From IMG/VR virus record IMGVR_UViG_3300026077_000027, positions 1 through 23,319 of that record: 23,319 nt of DNA. One strand, given 5' to 3'. The notes under the pieces are model-generated. The model saw nothing but the letters and a program-made list of their open reading frames with translations. It made no database searches and was not told the origin of the DNA. This DNA is from a virus. A program made the position numbers and the translations under genes. This document shows, piece after piece, positions 4,640 through 21,641 of this stretch; position 1 is the stretch's first letter; each line of letters starts with the position of its first letter.

Positions 4640-5817
4640 TGGCAAAGAACACACACTTAGAACACTTAGAAGATGAACTCATTAATAATGGGTATGCAGG
4701 TGGTCTAAATGCAATAAAATTTTTAGAGTCCCTTCGTGATATGCTAGGGACACAGACTACAGGTACTAGAATCACAACCAAATGGGATGGTGCACCTGCT
4801 ATCGTATGTGGTACTGATCCAGAGACAGGACTATTCTTTGTAGGAACTAAGTCTGCATTTAATAAGATACCTAAGATAGCATCATCAGATTCTGAAGTTG
4901 ATTACCATTATCCTGGTCCTATCAATGGCATCTTAAAGAAATGTTTGCAATACCTTAAGAAACTACCTATCAATGGTGTCCTGCAAGGTGATTTATTATA
5001 TACATCCACACCAGGTCTGGCCAAGATGGGTGGTATTAATGGATATAAATTCAGACCCAATACTATTACATACTTTGCACAACAGGATAGTCCATTAGGT
5101 GATAAGGTTGCTGCATCTAACTTAGGTATAGTATTTCACACAACATATAGTGGAGCAACGATGGCAGAAATGAGTGCATCATTTGGTGCAGATGTTAGTG
5201 GACTGCAGGGTGTCAAAGACGTTGCAGTATTATCATCAGACTTTCAGACTACAGGTAAGGGAGTTAGTCTAACTGCTATGGAGAAAGCAGCAGTCAATAA
5301 GAATATTAATTCTGCCAAAACTAGCATAACTAAGGGTAGAAACTTCCTTGATCTTCTTGGAGGTAAGAAACCATTTGAGTTTACTGCATTGTTTAAGATG
5401 TATTTTAACCAAGTGGTTCGTGGTGGTGTCATTCCATCATCCTCTTCTGTTATGCTCAAAGGATTTGTATCCTTTGTAATACAGAGGTTTGATATGGAGA
5501 TTGCCAAAAAGAAAACGGAAAAATCTCAGATTGCATGGGATAAAAAGAAAGAGAGTACTATTAAATACCTAAATAGTAACAAAACTGCCATACATAATGC
5601 TATGAATGCCTTTACTGCATTGATGACTGCTAAAAACATCATCATCGGCAGACTACAAAAGGTTAAAGGCATTGGTACGTTCATAGAGGATGAAGATGGG
5701 TATCGAGTAACAAGTCCTGAGGGATTCGTTGCTATTAAAAACGGTACTGCTATGAAACTGGTCGATAGACTAGAGTTCAGTCGTGCTAACTTCACTGTTG
5801 CAAAAAATTGGGGATAA
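4639..5817 (+). CDS. Ligase-like nucleotidyltransferase (KxDG motif), cyanophage unknown family
   Basis: A 392-residue protein with a motif series like that of covalent nucleotidyltransferases (ATP-dependent RNA/DNA ligases, capping enzymes): motif I TKWDGAPA with candidate nucleotide-binding K48 and D50-G51, a motif III-like VLQGDLLY (114-121), a motif IV-like PEGFVAIK (360-367), and a motif V-like MKLVDR (372-377). The short IV-V spacing resembles T4 Rnl1 (EGYVA...FKIK). If active, it would form a lysyl-AMP and join or repair nucleic-acid ends. I recall relatives annotated only as a domain of unknown function (possibly DUF6267; unverified). ATG 4639 overlaps the previous stop, with a GAGG-containing site upstream. 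A nucleotidyltransferase gene follows directly at 5818. Confidence 0.7.
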   Translation: MAKNTHLEHLEDELINNGYAGGLNAIKFLESLRDMLGTQTTGTRITTKWDGAPAIVCGTDPETGLFFVGTKSAFNKIPKIASSDSEVDYHYPGPINGILKKCLQYLKKLPINGVLQGDLLYTSTPGLAKMGGINGYKFRPNTITYFAQQDSPLGDKVAASNLGIVFHTTYSGATMAEMSASFGADVSGLQGVKDVAVLSSDFQTTGKGVSLTAMEKAAVNKNINSAKTSITKGRNFLDLLGGKKPFEFTALFKMYFNQVVRGGVIPSSSSVMLKGFVSFVIQRFDMEIAKKKTEKSQIAWDKKKESTIKYLNSNKTAIHNAMNAFTALMTAKNIIIGRLQKVKGIGTFIEDEDGYRVTSPEGFVAIKNGTAMKLVDRLEFSRANFTVAKNWG

Positions 5818-17195: not shown

Positions 17196-17279
17196 GATGT
17201 GAGTATGCTAACATACTCATACGTTCATCTCCATAGGGAGACGCAAGTAAGCCGACTCGGAACGGACACGTTCATCACT
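17196..17279 (+). ncRNA. Structured 5' leader of a small gene
   Basis: Contains the hairpin TGAGTATG (17200-17207), loop CTAA, CATACTCA (17212-17219), then GGGAGACGCAAG and a short GAAC...GTTC stem near 17260-17273. The 9-mer ACGTTCATC occurs twice, at 17221 and 17268. The frame is open throughout from GTG 17199, so part could be coding, but that codon would precede the predicted transcript start. The perfect hairpin and repeat suggest a translational control leader; no regulator is identified. Confidence 0.4.
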
Positions 17280-17642: not shown

Positions 17643-17671
17643 AAAGGAGGGGTTGACACCCTCCTTTTTTT
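17643..17671 (+). terminator. Rho-independent terminator with -35 box in its loop
   Basis: AAAGGAGGG (17643-17651) pairs with CCCTCCTTT (17659-17667), a 9-bp stem, with loop GTTGACA and a T-run to 17671. It ends the small-gene unit. The loop holds TTGACA of the overlapping promoter. Confidence 0.85.
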
Positions 17672-17681
17672 ATGCCATAAT
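17653..17681 (+). promoter_or_regulatory. Sigma70-type promoter overlapping the terminator
   Basis: TTGACA (17653-17658) in the terminator loop, a 17-bp spacer made of the right stem arm and T-run, then CATAAT (17676-17681). The predicted start near 17688 coincides with the first base of the GTGC...GCAC hairpin of the RNA region before talC. Confidence 0.55.
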
Positions 17682-17687
17682 AACTTC

Positions 17688-17880
17688 GTGCCTGATCAGC
17701 ACATTGGGAGTGACTGAATAATCTTTCTGGCAAACGCTGGATAAGGTGATGAGACACAGGTGGTGCTGCACCGAGAGGTGAATCGACTTACCAGTCGGGT
17801 CTCAGGCAAGGACGTAAAATTTACTACTGTAGTAATGCCCGTTCTTTGTTGGTATACAGGAATCCAACCTCCCTCCTCAC
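17688..17880 (+). ncRNA. Structured RNA / long leader upstream of talC
   Basis: A stretch of about 190 nt with no convincing gene but dense pairing. GTGC (17688-17691) pairs with GCAC (17699-17702). TGAGAC (17750-17755) pairs with GTCTCA (17799-17804), closing a three-way junction that holds GGTG-CTG-CACC (17762-17772) and CGACT-TACC-AGTCG (17784-17797). Then come TTACTA-CTG-TAGTAA (17821-17835) and GTTGG...CCAAC (17848-17868). It starts at a predicted transcription start and ends at a late-type box, so it may be an independent small RNA or a talC leader. No tRNA cloverleaf fits. Confidence 0.55.
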
Positions 17881-17886
17881 TAAATA
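17880..17886 (+). promoter_or_regulatory. Late promoter-like box CTAAATA before talC
   Basis: CTAAATA ends 20 nt before the talC ATG. With the upstream sigma70-type promoter, talC could be read both early (with the structured RNA) and late (without it). Confidence 0.4.
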
Positions 17887-17906
17887 ATGCAACGACAAAA
17901 AGAGCA

Positions 17907-18578
17907 ATGAAAATCTTCCTAGACAGTAGCAACGTTGATGAGATTACGAAAGCAGTTGGTACAGGTCTGATTGATGGAGTAACTACAAACCCCTCCCTTA
18001 TGCTTAAAGCAGGTGAGGATCCTACAGAGATACTCAAACAAGTTTGTGATTTATTTTCATGGGATGCATCTGTTTCTGCTGAAGTGTCTGGAGACACCTC
18101 TGAAGAGATGCTAGACATGGCAGACGAGTATATTAATATTCATCCAAGCATTACTATTAAGGTACCTTGCAACGTTGCAGGTCTTTTAGCATGTAGGGAT
18201 CTAAAGTCTGATGAGATAGCAGTTAACGTAACTCTTATCTTCTCAGTAGCACAAGCAATACTTGCTTCTAAAGCAGGTGCTAAGTATGTGTCACCGTTTG
18301 TAGGTAGAGTACAAGATAATAATTTTGATGGTGTCCAACTGGTTGGTGATATTGTAAAGACCTTTGAGACACACGAAAGAGATACACAGATCCTTGCAGC
18401 GAGTTTGAGGAATGTATATGATGTGTCGAAATGTTTCCAAGTTGGTGCAGACATCGTTACTATGCCACCTAAATTATTCTGGGGTATGTACAACCATATC
18501 TTAACCGAGAAAGGTTTACAGATCTTTAATAAAGACTGGGAACAGGTCAAACAGATCATAAAAGAACGTGAAATATAA
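17907..18578 (+). CDS. talC: Transaldolase, TalC/fructose-6-phosphate aldolase-like
   Basis: A 223-residue class I aldolase-family enzyme. The start MKIFLDSSNVDEI, the GVTTNPSL motif and the Schiff-base lysine K85 in TIKVPCN are diagnostic, with GAKYVSPFVGR downstream. It acts in the pentose-phosphate pathway, exchanging dihydroxyacetone units between sugar phosphates. Cyanophage TalC is a well-known auxiliary enzyme thought to support NADPH and ribose-5-phosphate supply for dNTPs. ATG 17907 is chosen because upstream residues in the open frame overlap structured non-coding sequence; AAGAG precedes it. Confidence 0.95.
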   Translation: MKIFLDSSNVDEITKAVGTGLIDGVTTNPSLMLKAGEDPTEILKQVCDLFSWDASVSAEVSGDTSEEMLDMADEYINIHPSITIKVPCNVAGLLACRDLKSDEIAVNVTLIFSVAQAILASKAGAKYVSPFVGRVQDNNFDGVQLVGDIVKTFETHERDTQILAASLRNVYDVSKCFQVGADIVTMPPKLFWGMYNHILTEKGLQIFNKDWEQVKQIIKEREI

Positions 18579-18946: not shown

Positions 18947-19053
18947 GTCTATCAACTGACAAACTATTAGCAATTTACCTGAGGGCAAAACGTCCACCTA
19001 AACTCAAGTACAAACCACCCAGAAAAGCACATAATGTAGCACTCTATGGATAA
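18943..19053 (+). CDS. 36-residue basic protein of unknown function
   Basis: ATG 18943 opens 36 codons (MSLSTDKLLAIYLRAKRPPK, then LKYKPPRKAH, ending VALYG). GGAGGGG lies just upstream, and ATG overlaps the preceding TGA. Short N-terminal helix, then a Pro/Lys-rich tail. The next gene starts within its end. Confidence 0.5.
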   Translation: MSLSTDKLLAIYLRAKRPPKLKYKPPRKAHNVALYG

Positions 19054-19591
19054 GATTCCAGTACAAGATTGCATAGCGAAGGATCATTATGATCTGCCAC
19101 CACAGGTAAGAGAAAAGATCTTATCTTTGATAGCAGACTCTGATGATCCTCCTCTTGATGATGGTACATCATTGATATCAAAGTATGACTTTGATTTTTC
19201 ATTTGATTTTGATAGAGATTGGGTGGAAGTAATCAAACCACATCTCTTTAAAGCACTGACCAAGACTCTAGATCAACTAGGGTACTTGGATTTTTCTGTA
19301 GATCAGATATGGTATCAACAATATGAAAAAGGATCTAATCATGTCTGGCATATTCATGGCAGACATTTTACTGGTGTGTATTATTTGGAGTTTCCTAGTG
19401 GTTCTGCTCCCACTCAGGTAGTATCTCCTTACACTATGAAAGCTATGACATTAGATTGTAAGGAGGGAGATCTAATAGTATTCCCATCTCATTGGACACA
19501 TCGTGGCATGAAAAATACATCAGATCGTAAGACAATTATCTCTTACAACATCAACATACATAGATGTATACCTGAGGAACTTATACTATGA
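19046..19591 (+). CDS. 2OG-Fe(II) oxygenase, phage 2OG_Oxy_5-like
   Basis: A 181-residue protein. The core NHVWHIHGRHFTGVYYLEF (H102-x-H104 region), GDLIVFPSHWTHRG with distal H152, and R161 in SDRKTIISYNINIH follow the phage/cyanobacterial family in which the pattern is WHxHxxxxxSGVYYL...FPSxxxH...R. First of four oxygenase genes in this cluster. Substrate unknown. ATG 19046 overlaps the small gene before it, and its stop overlaps the nuclease start (ATGA). Confidence 0.82.
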   Translation: MDKIPVQDCIAKDHYDLPPQVREKILSLIADSDDPPLDDGTSLISKYDFDFSFDFDRDWVEVIKPHLFKALTKTLDQLGYLDFSVDQIWYQQYEKGSNHVWHIHGRHFTGVYYLEFPSGSAPTQVVSPYTMKAMTLDCKEGDLIVFPSHWTHRGMKNTSDRKTIISYNINIHRCIPEELIL

Positions 19592-19926
19592 GACCACAGT
19601 CAGCGAAAGCAAAGGGAAGACTCTTCCAACAGTGGGTGCGAGACCAACTGATAGAACATCGTGAGATACATCCAGAGGACATAGAGTCTAGGAGTATGGG
19701 TGCAGGTGGTGAGGACTTAATAATGGCAAGAGATGCTAGACAAAAGTTCCCCTTTAGTATAGAATGTAAGAACCAAGAGAAACTTAATGTGTATGAAGCA
19801 TACGCACAAGCAGAGGCAAACTCTGGAGACCATGAGCCAGTCTTATTCATGAAAAGGAATAGAAAGAAAGCTCTCGCTGTTGTTGACGCTGAATGGTTTA
19901 TTAAAAATGTTTCTAGTTCCAATTGA
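19588..19926 (+). CDS. PD-(D/E)xK nuclease, resolvase-like
   Basis: A 112-residue protein. MRPQSAKAKGRLFQQWVRD, the SMGAGGEDL motif with E42-D43, and SIECKNQEK with E59-x-K61 give the D...ExK active-site layout of small phage nucleases related to Holliday-junction resolvases. It probably cleaves DNA structures, in repair, recombination or host DNA breakdown; the substrate cannot be assigned. It sits between two oxygenase genes, overlapping both, so it belongs to the same transcript. Confidence 0.7.
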   Translation: MRPQSAKAKGRLFQQWVRDQLIEHREIHPEDIESRSMGAGGEDLIMARDARQKFPFSIECKNQEKLNVYEAYAQAEANSGDHEPVLFMKRNRKKALAVVDAEWFIKNVSSSN

Positions 19927-20509
19927 GAGTTTCCATATCCCCGACTGGGACAAGTGGAAACCAAAAATATTATCTGAATTAAAAGGTGGTAGTACCTTAG
20001 CAACCATATCTTCCAGTGGTAGAACATCTTTTGACGATATGGAGTCAGATTTTTATGATAATAATAAGCGTGGGGTGTTACCAGATTACTATTACCTTGT
20101 TAAACAGGCATTAGAACCCGTCCTGGATGAGTTTCAGGAGGACTATCCAATACCATTGCGTATCATAAATATGTGGTACCAAGCTACTGCTAATGGAAAG
20201 ATGCATGGGGTACATAATCATGGTCCTATAGGTGTGTCAGCAGTATTGTATGTTGACTTTGATCCTCTTATACATAAACCTACTACATTCTATTCACCCT
20301 TCCCAGATTATATTAATGGAGAAGTGATGGAGTTTGTACCTGATGCTAAGGAGGGTGACATAGTATTCTTCCCTAGTTTTGTACACCATTGTCAAGATCC
20401 TAATCAAAGTGATAAGCAAAGGGTTGTTATATCAATGAACTTTGCAGGTAAAGGACAAGGTATTCTTAGAGAACCAGAACCTATGGATATAAGAAGAGGA
20501 CCAGCATGA
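19907..20509 (+). CDS. 2OG-Fe(II) oxygenase, second of the cluster
   Basis: A 200-residue protein from ATG 19907 (MFLVPIESFHIPDWDKW); an in-frame ATG at 19880 lies deeper in the nuclease gene and is not preferred. Signature parts: MHGVHNHGPIGVSAVLYV (H103, H105), GDIVFFPSFVHHCQD (H160/H161) and R172 in DKQRVVISMNF. The His-x-His start and downstream Arg match the same family as the gene at 19046, though overall similarity is low, suggesting old divergence rather than recent duplication. Confidence 0.8.
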   Translation: MFLVPIESFHIPDWDKWKPKILSELKGGSTLATISSSGRTSFDDMESDFYDNNKRGVLPDYYYLVKQALEPVLDEFQEDYPIPLRIINMWYQATANGKMHGVHNHGPIGVSAVLYVDFDPLIHKPTTFYSPFPDYINGEVMEFVPDAKEGDIVFFPSFVHHCQDPNQSDKQRVVISMNFAGKGQGILREPEPMDIRRGPA

Positions 20510-21021
20510 ATTATAGAGATCGTTATGTGACTGTTGACTTAGATGATGAAGAGTTTAAGTTAATCAAAGAAACAATAGGAGAACCAGTATATGAAGAGAC
20601 TGAGATTGATGATGTACGAAAGTCAAAAGTACATTTTATTGAGTCACAGTTACTCAATGATATGGTACTGTCGTACACAGAGAGAGTTAATAAAGCGGCT
20701 AACTGGAATTTCGATGTCGATTTCTTGGAAGCATTACAAGTTACCAAGTACGAAGTCGATGATAGATATGATTGGCACCAAGATGAATCAGAGTGGTGTC
20801 TTAATAAGAGAAAGGGTCAAAGGATTAGAAAGATATCCTTTACGCTTCTATTAAATGAAGAGTTTAAGGGTGGTGAGTTTGTTCTCATCAACCAAGAGGT
20901 ACCATTAAAGGCAGGTCAGATGATCTTCTTTCATTCTGATGACTATCATCAAGTCAATACTGTTACTGAGGGTGTCAGGAATTCTTTAGTCGGATGGGTA
21001 CAAGGACCAGCATGGAAGTAA
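20506..21021 (+). CDS. 2OG-Fe(II) oxygenase, prolyl-hydroxylase/PiuC-like
   Basis: A 171-residue protein with a textbook iron site: H91-Q-D93 in YDWHQDES, distal H148 in SDDYHQVNTV, and 2OG-binding R158 ten residues later in GVRNSLVGWVQGP. The strands RKISFTLLLNE and GGEFVLINQ complete the double-stranded beta-helix. The sequence resembles PKHD/PiuC-type hydroxylases. ATG 20506 overlaps the preceding stop (ATGA). Substrate unknown; protein or nucleotide hydroxylation are both possible. Confidence 0.88.
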   Translation: MNYRDRYVTVDLDDEEFKLIKETIGEPVYEETEIDDVRKSKVHFIESQLLNDMVLSYTERVNKAANWNFDVDFLEALQVTKYEVDDRYDWHQDESEWCLNKRKGQRIRKISFTLLLNEEFKGGEFVLINQEVPLKAGQMIFFHSDDYHQVNTVTEGVRNSLVGWVQGPAWK

Positions 21022-21641
21022 CTAAACTTAATCCACAACCAATATTACATGATGGGATGGTAGCACAACCCCGTACTGATTTCATTTACATGGAGGACAT
21101 GGAAGAGAGTGTGGTGGATGGTCTAATAGATTTTCATAAGACACAAAAGATCTTTAGTACATGGCAAGGTGAGACTATAGGTGAGTCTGGTGATGGATTA
21201 TATAATCCTGAGATCAAAGACTCAATGGACACAGCAGTGTTTGTTGGAACAGATGATGACAGAATATATAATTTTCTAGGACATCTAAACGATGCAGCAG
21301 ACAACTACGTTAGTAGGTTCCCTCTTGCTGCTAAGACTACAGTGTGGAAAGTAGAAGAGTTTTTTAACTTACAATATTATAAACCTGGTGGTGGGTATCA
21401 CCTCTGGCATTGCGAACGTCAATCATCTTCACGATCAAGTACATACAGACACCTTGTATGGATGATCTATCTTAATGATGTTCCTGATGGTGGTACTGAG
21501 TGGTTCCATCAAGATCTTTATGTTCCTGCTAAGAAAGGTAGAGTAGTTATTTGGCCAGCAGACTGGACACACCACCATAGAGGCAGGAAGTCTAACACCT
21601 CCGAGAAACTTATTGCAACAGGATGGTTCCACTTCATATAA
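21012..21641 (+). CDS. 2OG-Fe(II) oxygenase with HxE iron motif
   Basis: A 209-residue protein from ATG 21012 (AAGGA at 21003-21007); ATG 20994 in frame is the alternative. The core reads YYKPGGGYHLWHCERQ, with H133-x-E135 in place of HxD, then VWMIYLNDVPDGGTEWF, and the distal WTHHHRGRKS (H187-H189) with a downstream EKLIATGWFHF. The Glu variant is unusual but seen in some family members. Last of the four-oxygenase run; a promoter gap follows. Confidence 0.82.
   Translation: MEVTKLNPQPILHDGMVAQPRTDFIYMEDMEESVVDGLIDFHKTQKIFSTWQGETIGESGDGLYNPEIKDSMDTAVFVGTDDDRIYNFLGHLNDAADNYVSRFPLAAKTTVWKVEEFFNLQYYKPGGGYHLWHCERQSSSRSSTYRHLVWMIYLNDVPDGGTEWFHQDLYVPAKKGRVVIWPADWTHHHRGRKSNTSEKLIATGWFHFI

Follow-up and report, generated by a model that had tools for sequence, protein, structure and literature searches.

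The manA RNA family (RF01745) was described by Weinberg et al. (2010, PMC2864571), who graded it 'certainly RNA, certainly cis-regulatory, probably switch', that is, an unproven riboswitch candidate, and whose published downstream genes follow mannose/fructose, nucleotide and photosynthesis themes. The literature that we found on the family, listed since 2010, reports no ligand. A further report describes a manA structure that covariation supports better than it does the database model (PMC7657543). The wcaG RNA (RF01761) is likewise an orphan structured RNA of marine metagenomes and T4-like cyanophages (PMC2864571), but it forms a separate family with its own model. The glutamine riboswitch (RF01739), in contrast, is a proven riboswitch class; it also occurs near manA in one cyanophage contig (L020), and the Rfam scan gives no relation between the two. 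HK022 put RNA and the EAR antiterminators of Bacillus are phage or operon RNAs that start early transcripts independently of gene identity, and neither is, to our knowledge, homologous to manA.

The window analysed here, a virus record of 23,319 nucleotides (23.3 kb), is of T4-like cyanophage type and carries nrdA, nrdB and talC; among annotated relatives cyanophage P-RSM6 comes nearest, matching 90% of a 1-kb query at 85.7% identity. It has no wcaG match. A glutamine riboswitch aptamer, just over its cut-off, lies in a separate transcript region about 420 nt upstream of manA, and a small open reading frame of phrog_504 (MFTPILLATALACSDANW...) stands behind it; a member of that protein family lies directly downstream of manA instead in P-SSM3 and P-SSM4. 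Downstream of talC lie several clustered 2OG-Fe(II) oxygenase-like genes.

Identity and fold of the RNA

An earlier note, made from the sequence alone, had marked positions 17688-17906 as a structured RNA ahead of talC that contains no credible gene and was not recognised as any described class. The structure is confirmed by the family match and by covariation, and the boundaries are correct to within about one base, but the RNA does belong to a described class. The Rfam search that the note itself proposed aligns the region with the full length of RF01745 (model positions 1-192) at 173.2 bits, against a gathering cut-off of 55.2 (E 7e-47). The stretch is, to all practical certainty, a manA RNA. 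Nothing in the window copy differs from this already catalogued family: it has the full length, all the main stems and the cyanophage host range, and it precedes a fructose/transaldolase-type gene, as published. When all of Rfam was scanned with cmscan (E up to 1), the only other family overlapping the region was snoR35, at chance level (E 0.6). The idea that the RNA mimics a host RNA, also raised in the note, thus finds no support in Rfam.

The region does not code for protein. Among homologues, the spacing of two conserved motifs falls into all three classes modulo 3, and a coding role is rejected because no reading frame is kept. For the same reason the deposited hypothetical protein genes that overlap manA (PHM2_011, PHM2_012, PHM1_121, PSSM4_169.1 and SSSM5_127) are probably not genes; in P-HM2 the stretch at 4771-4969 is where PHM2_011 and PHM2_012 overlie the RNA. 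Database annotation is used here as deposited, and in contigs each gene is taken to begin at its first start codon.

Covariation was assessed with the Rfam-type structure on a plain MAFFT alignment of 46 manA homologues less than 90% identical. Two-sided (compensatory) changes occur in 32 of 53 base pairs, compared with 15 in shuffles, none of 500 of which reached 32. The structure pairs 93-94% of cells, a figure that falls to 32-46% when partners are slid by one to three columns. On this comparative evidence the fold is real. Folding energy is rejected as evidence for it, being no better than that of shuffled sequence (z 0.14 for 17688-17906; z -0.68 for 17688-17878). Good stems in a single sequence, of which the earlier note read at least five, thus prove nothing, because the minimum free energy is at chance; the proof is comparative.

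The fold also departs in part from the one first drawn (Table 1). The stem TGAGAC/GTCTCA was well chosen, all six of its pairs covarying, but in the Rfam model it encloses three small hairpins, one of only 3 bp, rather than two. Nor is the RNA a three-way junction: it is larger and multi-branched, and GGGAG/CTCCC closes the whole of it after hairpin P1. Stem P3 departs from the Rfam model, in whose register the outermost pair is broken in 11 of the 46 homologues; judged by the alignment, it is better drawn in a shifted register as AUCU/GGAU. A loop-loop pseudoknot, UGGU/ACCA, is possible; this pairing is conserved, not proven, since it is conserved without variation.

Table 1. Features of the manA locus, in window coordinates unless a phage or contig is named
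Feature	Position	Strand	Basis or remark
Glutamine riboswitch aptamer (RF01739)	17220-17268	+	35.2 bits
Upstream intrinsic terminator	17643-17667	+	terminator scan; 9-bp stem and U-run; -14.4 kcal/mol, z -2.7
Predicted sigma-70 promoter of manA	17653-17681	+	TTGACA 17653-17658, 17-nt spacer, extended TGc-CATAAT 17676-17681
manA RNA (RF01745)	17687-17878	+	Rfam covariance-model scan
5' hairpin P1	17688-17691/17699-17702	+	Rfam consensus; poorly aligned among homologues, 63% of cells paired
Closing stem GGGAG/CUCCC	17706-17710/17869-17873	+	99% of cells paired, 2 pairs with two-sided changes
Stem P3 revised, outer AUCU/GGAU	17721-17724/17739-17742	+	kept in 46/46; one pair with 19 two-sided changes
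Stem P3 revised, inner GGC/GCU	17729-17731/17736-17738	+	part of revised P3
Junction stem UGAGAC/GUCUCA	17750-17755/17799-17804	+	two-sided changes in 6/6 pairs, 98% of cells paired
Hairpins inside junction stem	17757-17768, 17769-17780, 17783-17798	+	Rfam model
Possible pseudoknot UGGU/ACCA	17761-17764/17790-17793	+	95% of cells paired, 0 two-sided changes
Stem AAGGACG/CGUUCUU	17808-17814/17840-17846	+	two-sided changes in 7/7 outer pairs, 99% paired
Inner hairpin of that stem	17821-17824/17832-17835	+	within 17808-17846
3' hairpin GUUGG/CCAAC	17848-17852/17864-17868	+	100% paired, 3 pairs with two-sided changes
Late-type promoter motif CTAAATA	17880-17886	+	read from sequence; two bases after manA
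talC, transaldolase, 223 aa	17907-18578	+	phrog_440, E 2e-100; ATG at 17907
2OG-Fe(II) oxygenase-like genes	19046-21641		phrog_81, phrog_61
tRNA behind manA	L016:5685-5755; L165:1564-1634		also in L002, L011, L025, L041, L077
39-nt hairpin behind manA	L004:3491-3529		also in L016, L080, L117 and about 85 further contigs
Deposited genes over manA	P-HM2 4849-5023; P-HM1 112705-112881; P-SSM4 164884-165057; S-SSM5 116417-116623		

Promoter, copy number and genomic sites

The predicted promoter of manA scores 11 of 12 against the consensus and places +1 near 17688, in agreement with the transcription start proposed in the earlier note. A sigma-70 promoter scoring at least 10/12 ends at the first base of manA in 128 of 133 loci among the matches listed, compared with 23 of 665 places drawn at random from these loci; promoters and terminators at these loci are predictions throughout. 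Promoters of the sigma-70 type are used by the host RNA polymerase, early in infection by T4-like phages. The upstream terminator hairpin carries the -35 box TTGACA in its loop, implying that transcripts of the upstream gene should stop where manA begins. Such a fusion is found at 40 of 138 manA loci among the matches listed, the window included. As a separate observation, a fused terminator and promoter of this kind (17643-17681) may be a general means by which cyanophages insulate early promoters.

manA is present in marine cyanophage genomes and in IMG/VR contigs, many of the latter short and related. A single motif scan of GTDB genomes gave two real matches, both in phage-like contigs; two others (L123 and L124) were set aside as chance motif matches. 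Copies in the collections were sought by exact motif, so the divergent copies of P-RSM1 and S-SSM7 were reached only by the covariance model, and the IMG/VR figures are of matches listed. Among the complete phage genomes tested, each of the 16 that have manA has exactly one copy. Seven Synechococcus phages gave no match over the covariance-model cut-off, although presence rates mean little, because most isolate genomes were chosen after blastn had found manA in them.

The single copy occupies many sites. It adjoins talC in P-RSM6 and P-TIM40, lies between regA and a gene annotated purL in P-SSM2, follows pstS in P-SSM3 and P-SSM4, ferredoxin in P-SSM7 and a capsid gene in P-HM1, MED4-213, S-SSM5 and P-RSM4, and precedes gp32 in P-HM2. 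P-HM1 and P-HM2, which the NCBI taxonomy places in a single species, have reciprocal empty sites: in P-HM1 manA lies between gp23 and the GC432 gene and is missing between pebS and gp32, and in P-HM2 the arrangement is reversed.

The next gene and the junction with manA

Does manA sense a metabolite on behalf of the gene that follows it? Among the matches listed, 36 next-gene families follow manA in 128 loci. The commonest is talC (29 loci, 23%), with a phosphomannomutase in 6 and a mannose-6-phosphate isomerase domain in 3; these three are over-represented, and the remaining families, which include gp32, baseplate gp25 and ferredoxin, are unrelated. Most cyanophage talC genes have no manA in front. 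The earlier note had offered a leader that senses a metabolite for a pentose-phosphate gene, but a sensor specific to that pathway is unlikely: no more than 29 of the 128 copies stand before talC, and talC is mostly found without manA. A talC-specific sensor is rejected, talC being one of 36 neighbour families. Mapped on the manA tree, the next-gene families (29 states) require 56 changes, and shuffled labels at least 57 (mean 61); the association is thus nearly random, on a tree that is built on fewer than 200 nt and may be poorly resolved. The strand of the neighbour was set aside as a test of cis against trans action: the next gene is co-directional in 128 of 128 loci, but this is uninformative, since 97% of neighbours in general are co-directional.

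The junction itself looks like an ordinary gene boundary rather than the link between an aptamer and its expression platform. A terminator lies in the gap behind manA in 25 of 108 distinct flanks, compared with 60 of 288 other co-directional gene-gene gaps, and these terminators comprise about ten unrelated sequences. P-HM1 and MED4-213 have a terminator behind manA. Of 111 flanks, 25 have the motif TAAATA in the 40 nt behind manA (4.7 in shuffled sequence); before other genes it is found in 33 of 199, so that the rate is about the usual one. Shine-Dalgarno-like motifs are less frequent in genes after manA than elsewhere (7/56 against 50/179), and no platform for a translational switch is therefore visible. 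Across manA copies no conserved expression platform was found, neither a shared terminator overlapping the aptamer nor sequestration of a Shine-Dalgarno sequence. A tRNA starts within about 15 nt of manA in 10 of 108 flanks. In several phages tRNA genes for Gly, Asn and Asp lie within about 15 nt of the manA end or just behind its 3' hairpin, and where a tRNA directly follows, its 5' processing would free the manA RNA.

Could manA nevertheless be a metabolite-sensing riboswitch in the 5' untranslated region of the next gene, here tuning talC, perhaps in response to hexose phosphate? This is the published candidate view, and the recurrence of talC and the two other hexose-phosphate genes, the leader-like position of many copies, which begin 10-50 nt ahead of a start codon, and the multi-branched fold with its conserved loops are all in its favour. 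In the window, moreover, manA occupies what could be the 5' untranslated region of talC, and the terminator scan found none between manA and talC (17879-17906), so that the two are probably co-transcribed, as far as the sequence tells, and a cis role is possible there. Against it stand the 36 downstream families, the tRNAs directly behind manA, the reciprocal empty sites within one species and the lack of a constant platform. We consider a riboswitch rather unlikely, its claim resting on the recurrence of these genes and on nothing separating manA from talC here.

A second kind of evidence concerns what moves with manA. A 39-nt hairpin, AGACCUAAGAUGCAACU..AGU.GGGCAGAUGGUCU, recurs directly behind manA ahead of different genes. 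The IMG/VR scan gave at least 90 copies, and all 89 with a readable upstream sequence lie directly behind manA (a core motif recognised 78, and the other 11, truncated or variant, were assigned by eye). The hairpin has a near-invariant internal loop, UAA/GAU, and in some copies GNRA-like loops. It precedes at least eight unrelated genes: gp32 (32 copies), a 120-aa protein (23), talC (14), phosphomannomutase (6), PurS, tRNA-Gly and others. A U-run follows it in 14 of 14 copies before talC and 6 of 6 before phosphomannomutase, but in none of 32 before gp32; before the 120-aa protein 15 of 23 copies are without a U-run, many with tRNA-Gly between. The hairpin, GACCTAAGATGCAACT..GGGCAGATGGTC, had at first the look of a terminator, but it is rejected as a shared riboswitch terminator and is not simply a terminator, because all 32 gp32 loci retain it and none has the U-run. 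It has no Rfam family and is absent from the window, and a covariance model built on it detected no convincing weaker copy at other places in the loci and no copy in 23 isolate genomes. Its varied neighbours show that manA is able to move together with a 3' part of its own, free of any fixed neighbour.

Mode of action

These observations lead us to favour, by a little, a reading that departs from the 'Cis-reg' label of the family: manA would be a gene for a free-standing non-coding RNA that T4-like cyanophages have transcribed early, and not a riboswitch of the next gene. Among the three options in the earlier note, the free small RNA is the one that best fits the comparative evidence. Its own promoter at the first base, the covarying fold, the single copy and the many unrelated sites speak for it; the leader-like spacing, the co-directional next genes, the talC and hexose-phosphate neighbours and the missing terminator before talC speak against it. 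Action in trans is, in our slightly inclined judgement, the simplest account of the family. The fuller proposal, of a mobile, single-copy, immediate-early trans-acting RNA gene of Prochlorococcus and Synechococcus T4-like phages, often with the unrecorded 39-nt hairpin as a 3' domain, we hold to be evenly poised.

Under the free-standing RNA reading, the host RNA polymerase would make manA early in infection. Its 3' end would be set by a terminator where one is present and by processing where a tRNA follows; otherwise manA would stay joined to the message of the next gene, as is probably the case with talC in the window. The RNA would then act in trans, its binding partner probably being a protein or RNA of the host or the phage. 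In the window the early transcript would comprise manA and talC, and a later talC message without manA could start at CTAAATA, the late-type promoter that the earlier note had assigned to talC and whose motif is indeed present. The main text on the strand-specific transcriptome of Prochlorococcus MED4 infected with P-HM2, a phage that has manA, carries no value for the manA RNA (PMC5082946).

Two other accounts retain some role in cis. The position of manA exactly at +1 behind a strong predicted promoter, its indifference to the next gene, with which it is always co-directional, and its occasional place directly before a terminator would suit a gene-independent element at the 5' end of early transcripts, either an antiterminator like put or EAR or a stabiliser of the message. 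Such an element might be expected once per early operon, but manA is found once per genome, and terminators follow it no more often than they follow other genes; manA is also much larger than put RNA, which counts against a put-like antiterminator. We regard this account as clearly improbable. Alternatively, manA may have both roles, a trans-acting RNA that some phages, this one included, have captured as a leader for talC or other sugar-phosphate genes. At talC loci with manA a terminator follows the RNA in some and not in others, and here a late promoter motif lies between the two, as a dual role would suggest; it nevertheless seems to us very improbable.

Finally, the window copy is in itself one more catalogued manA, and what matters is the reading of the family. 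If manA is a free-standing early phage RNA, the search for a ligand is misdirected; a trans-acting RNA conserved in viruses that are among the commonest in the ocean would add a new means of taking over the host.
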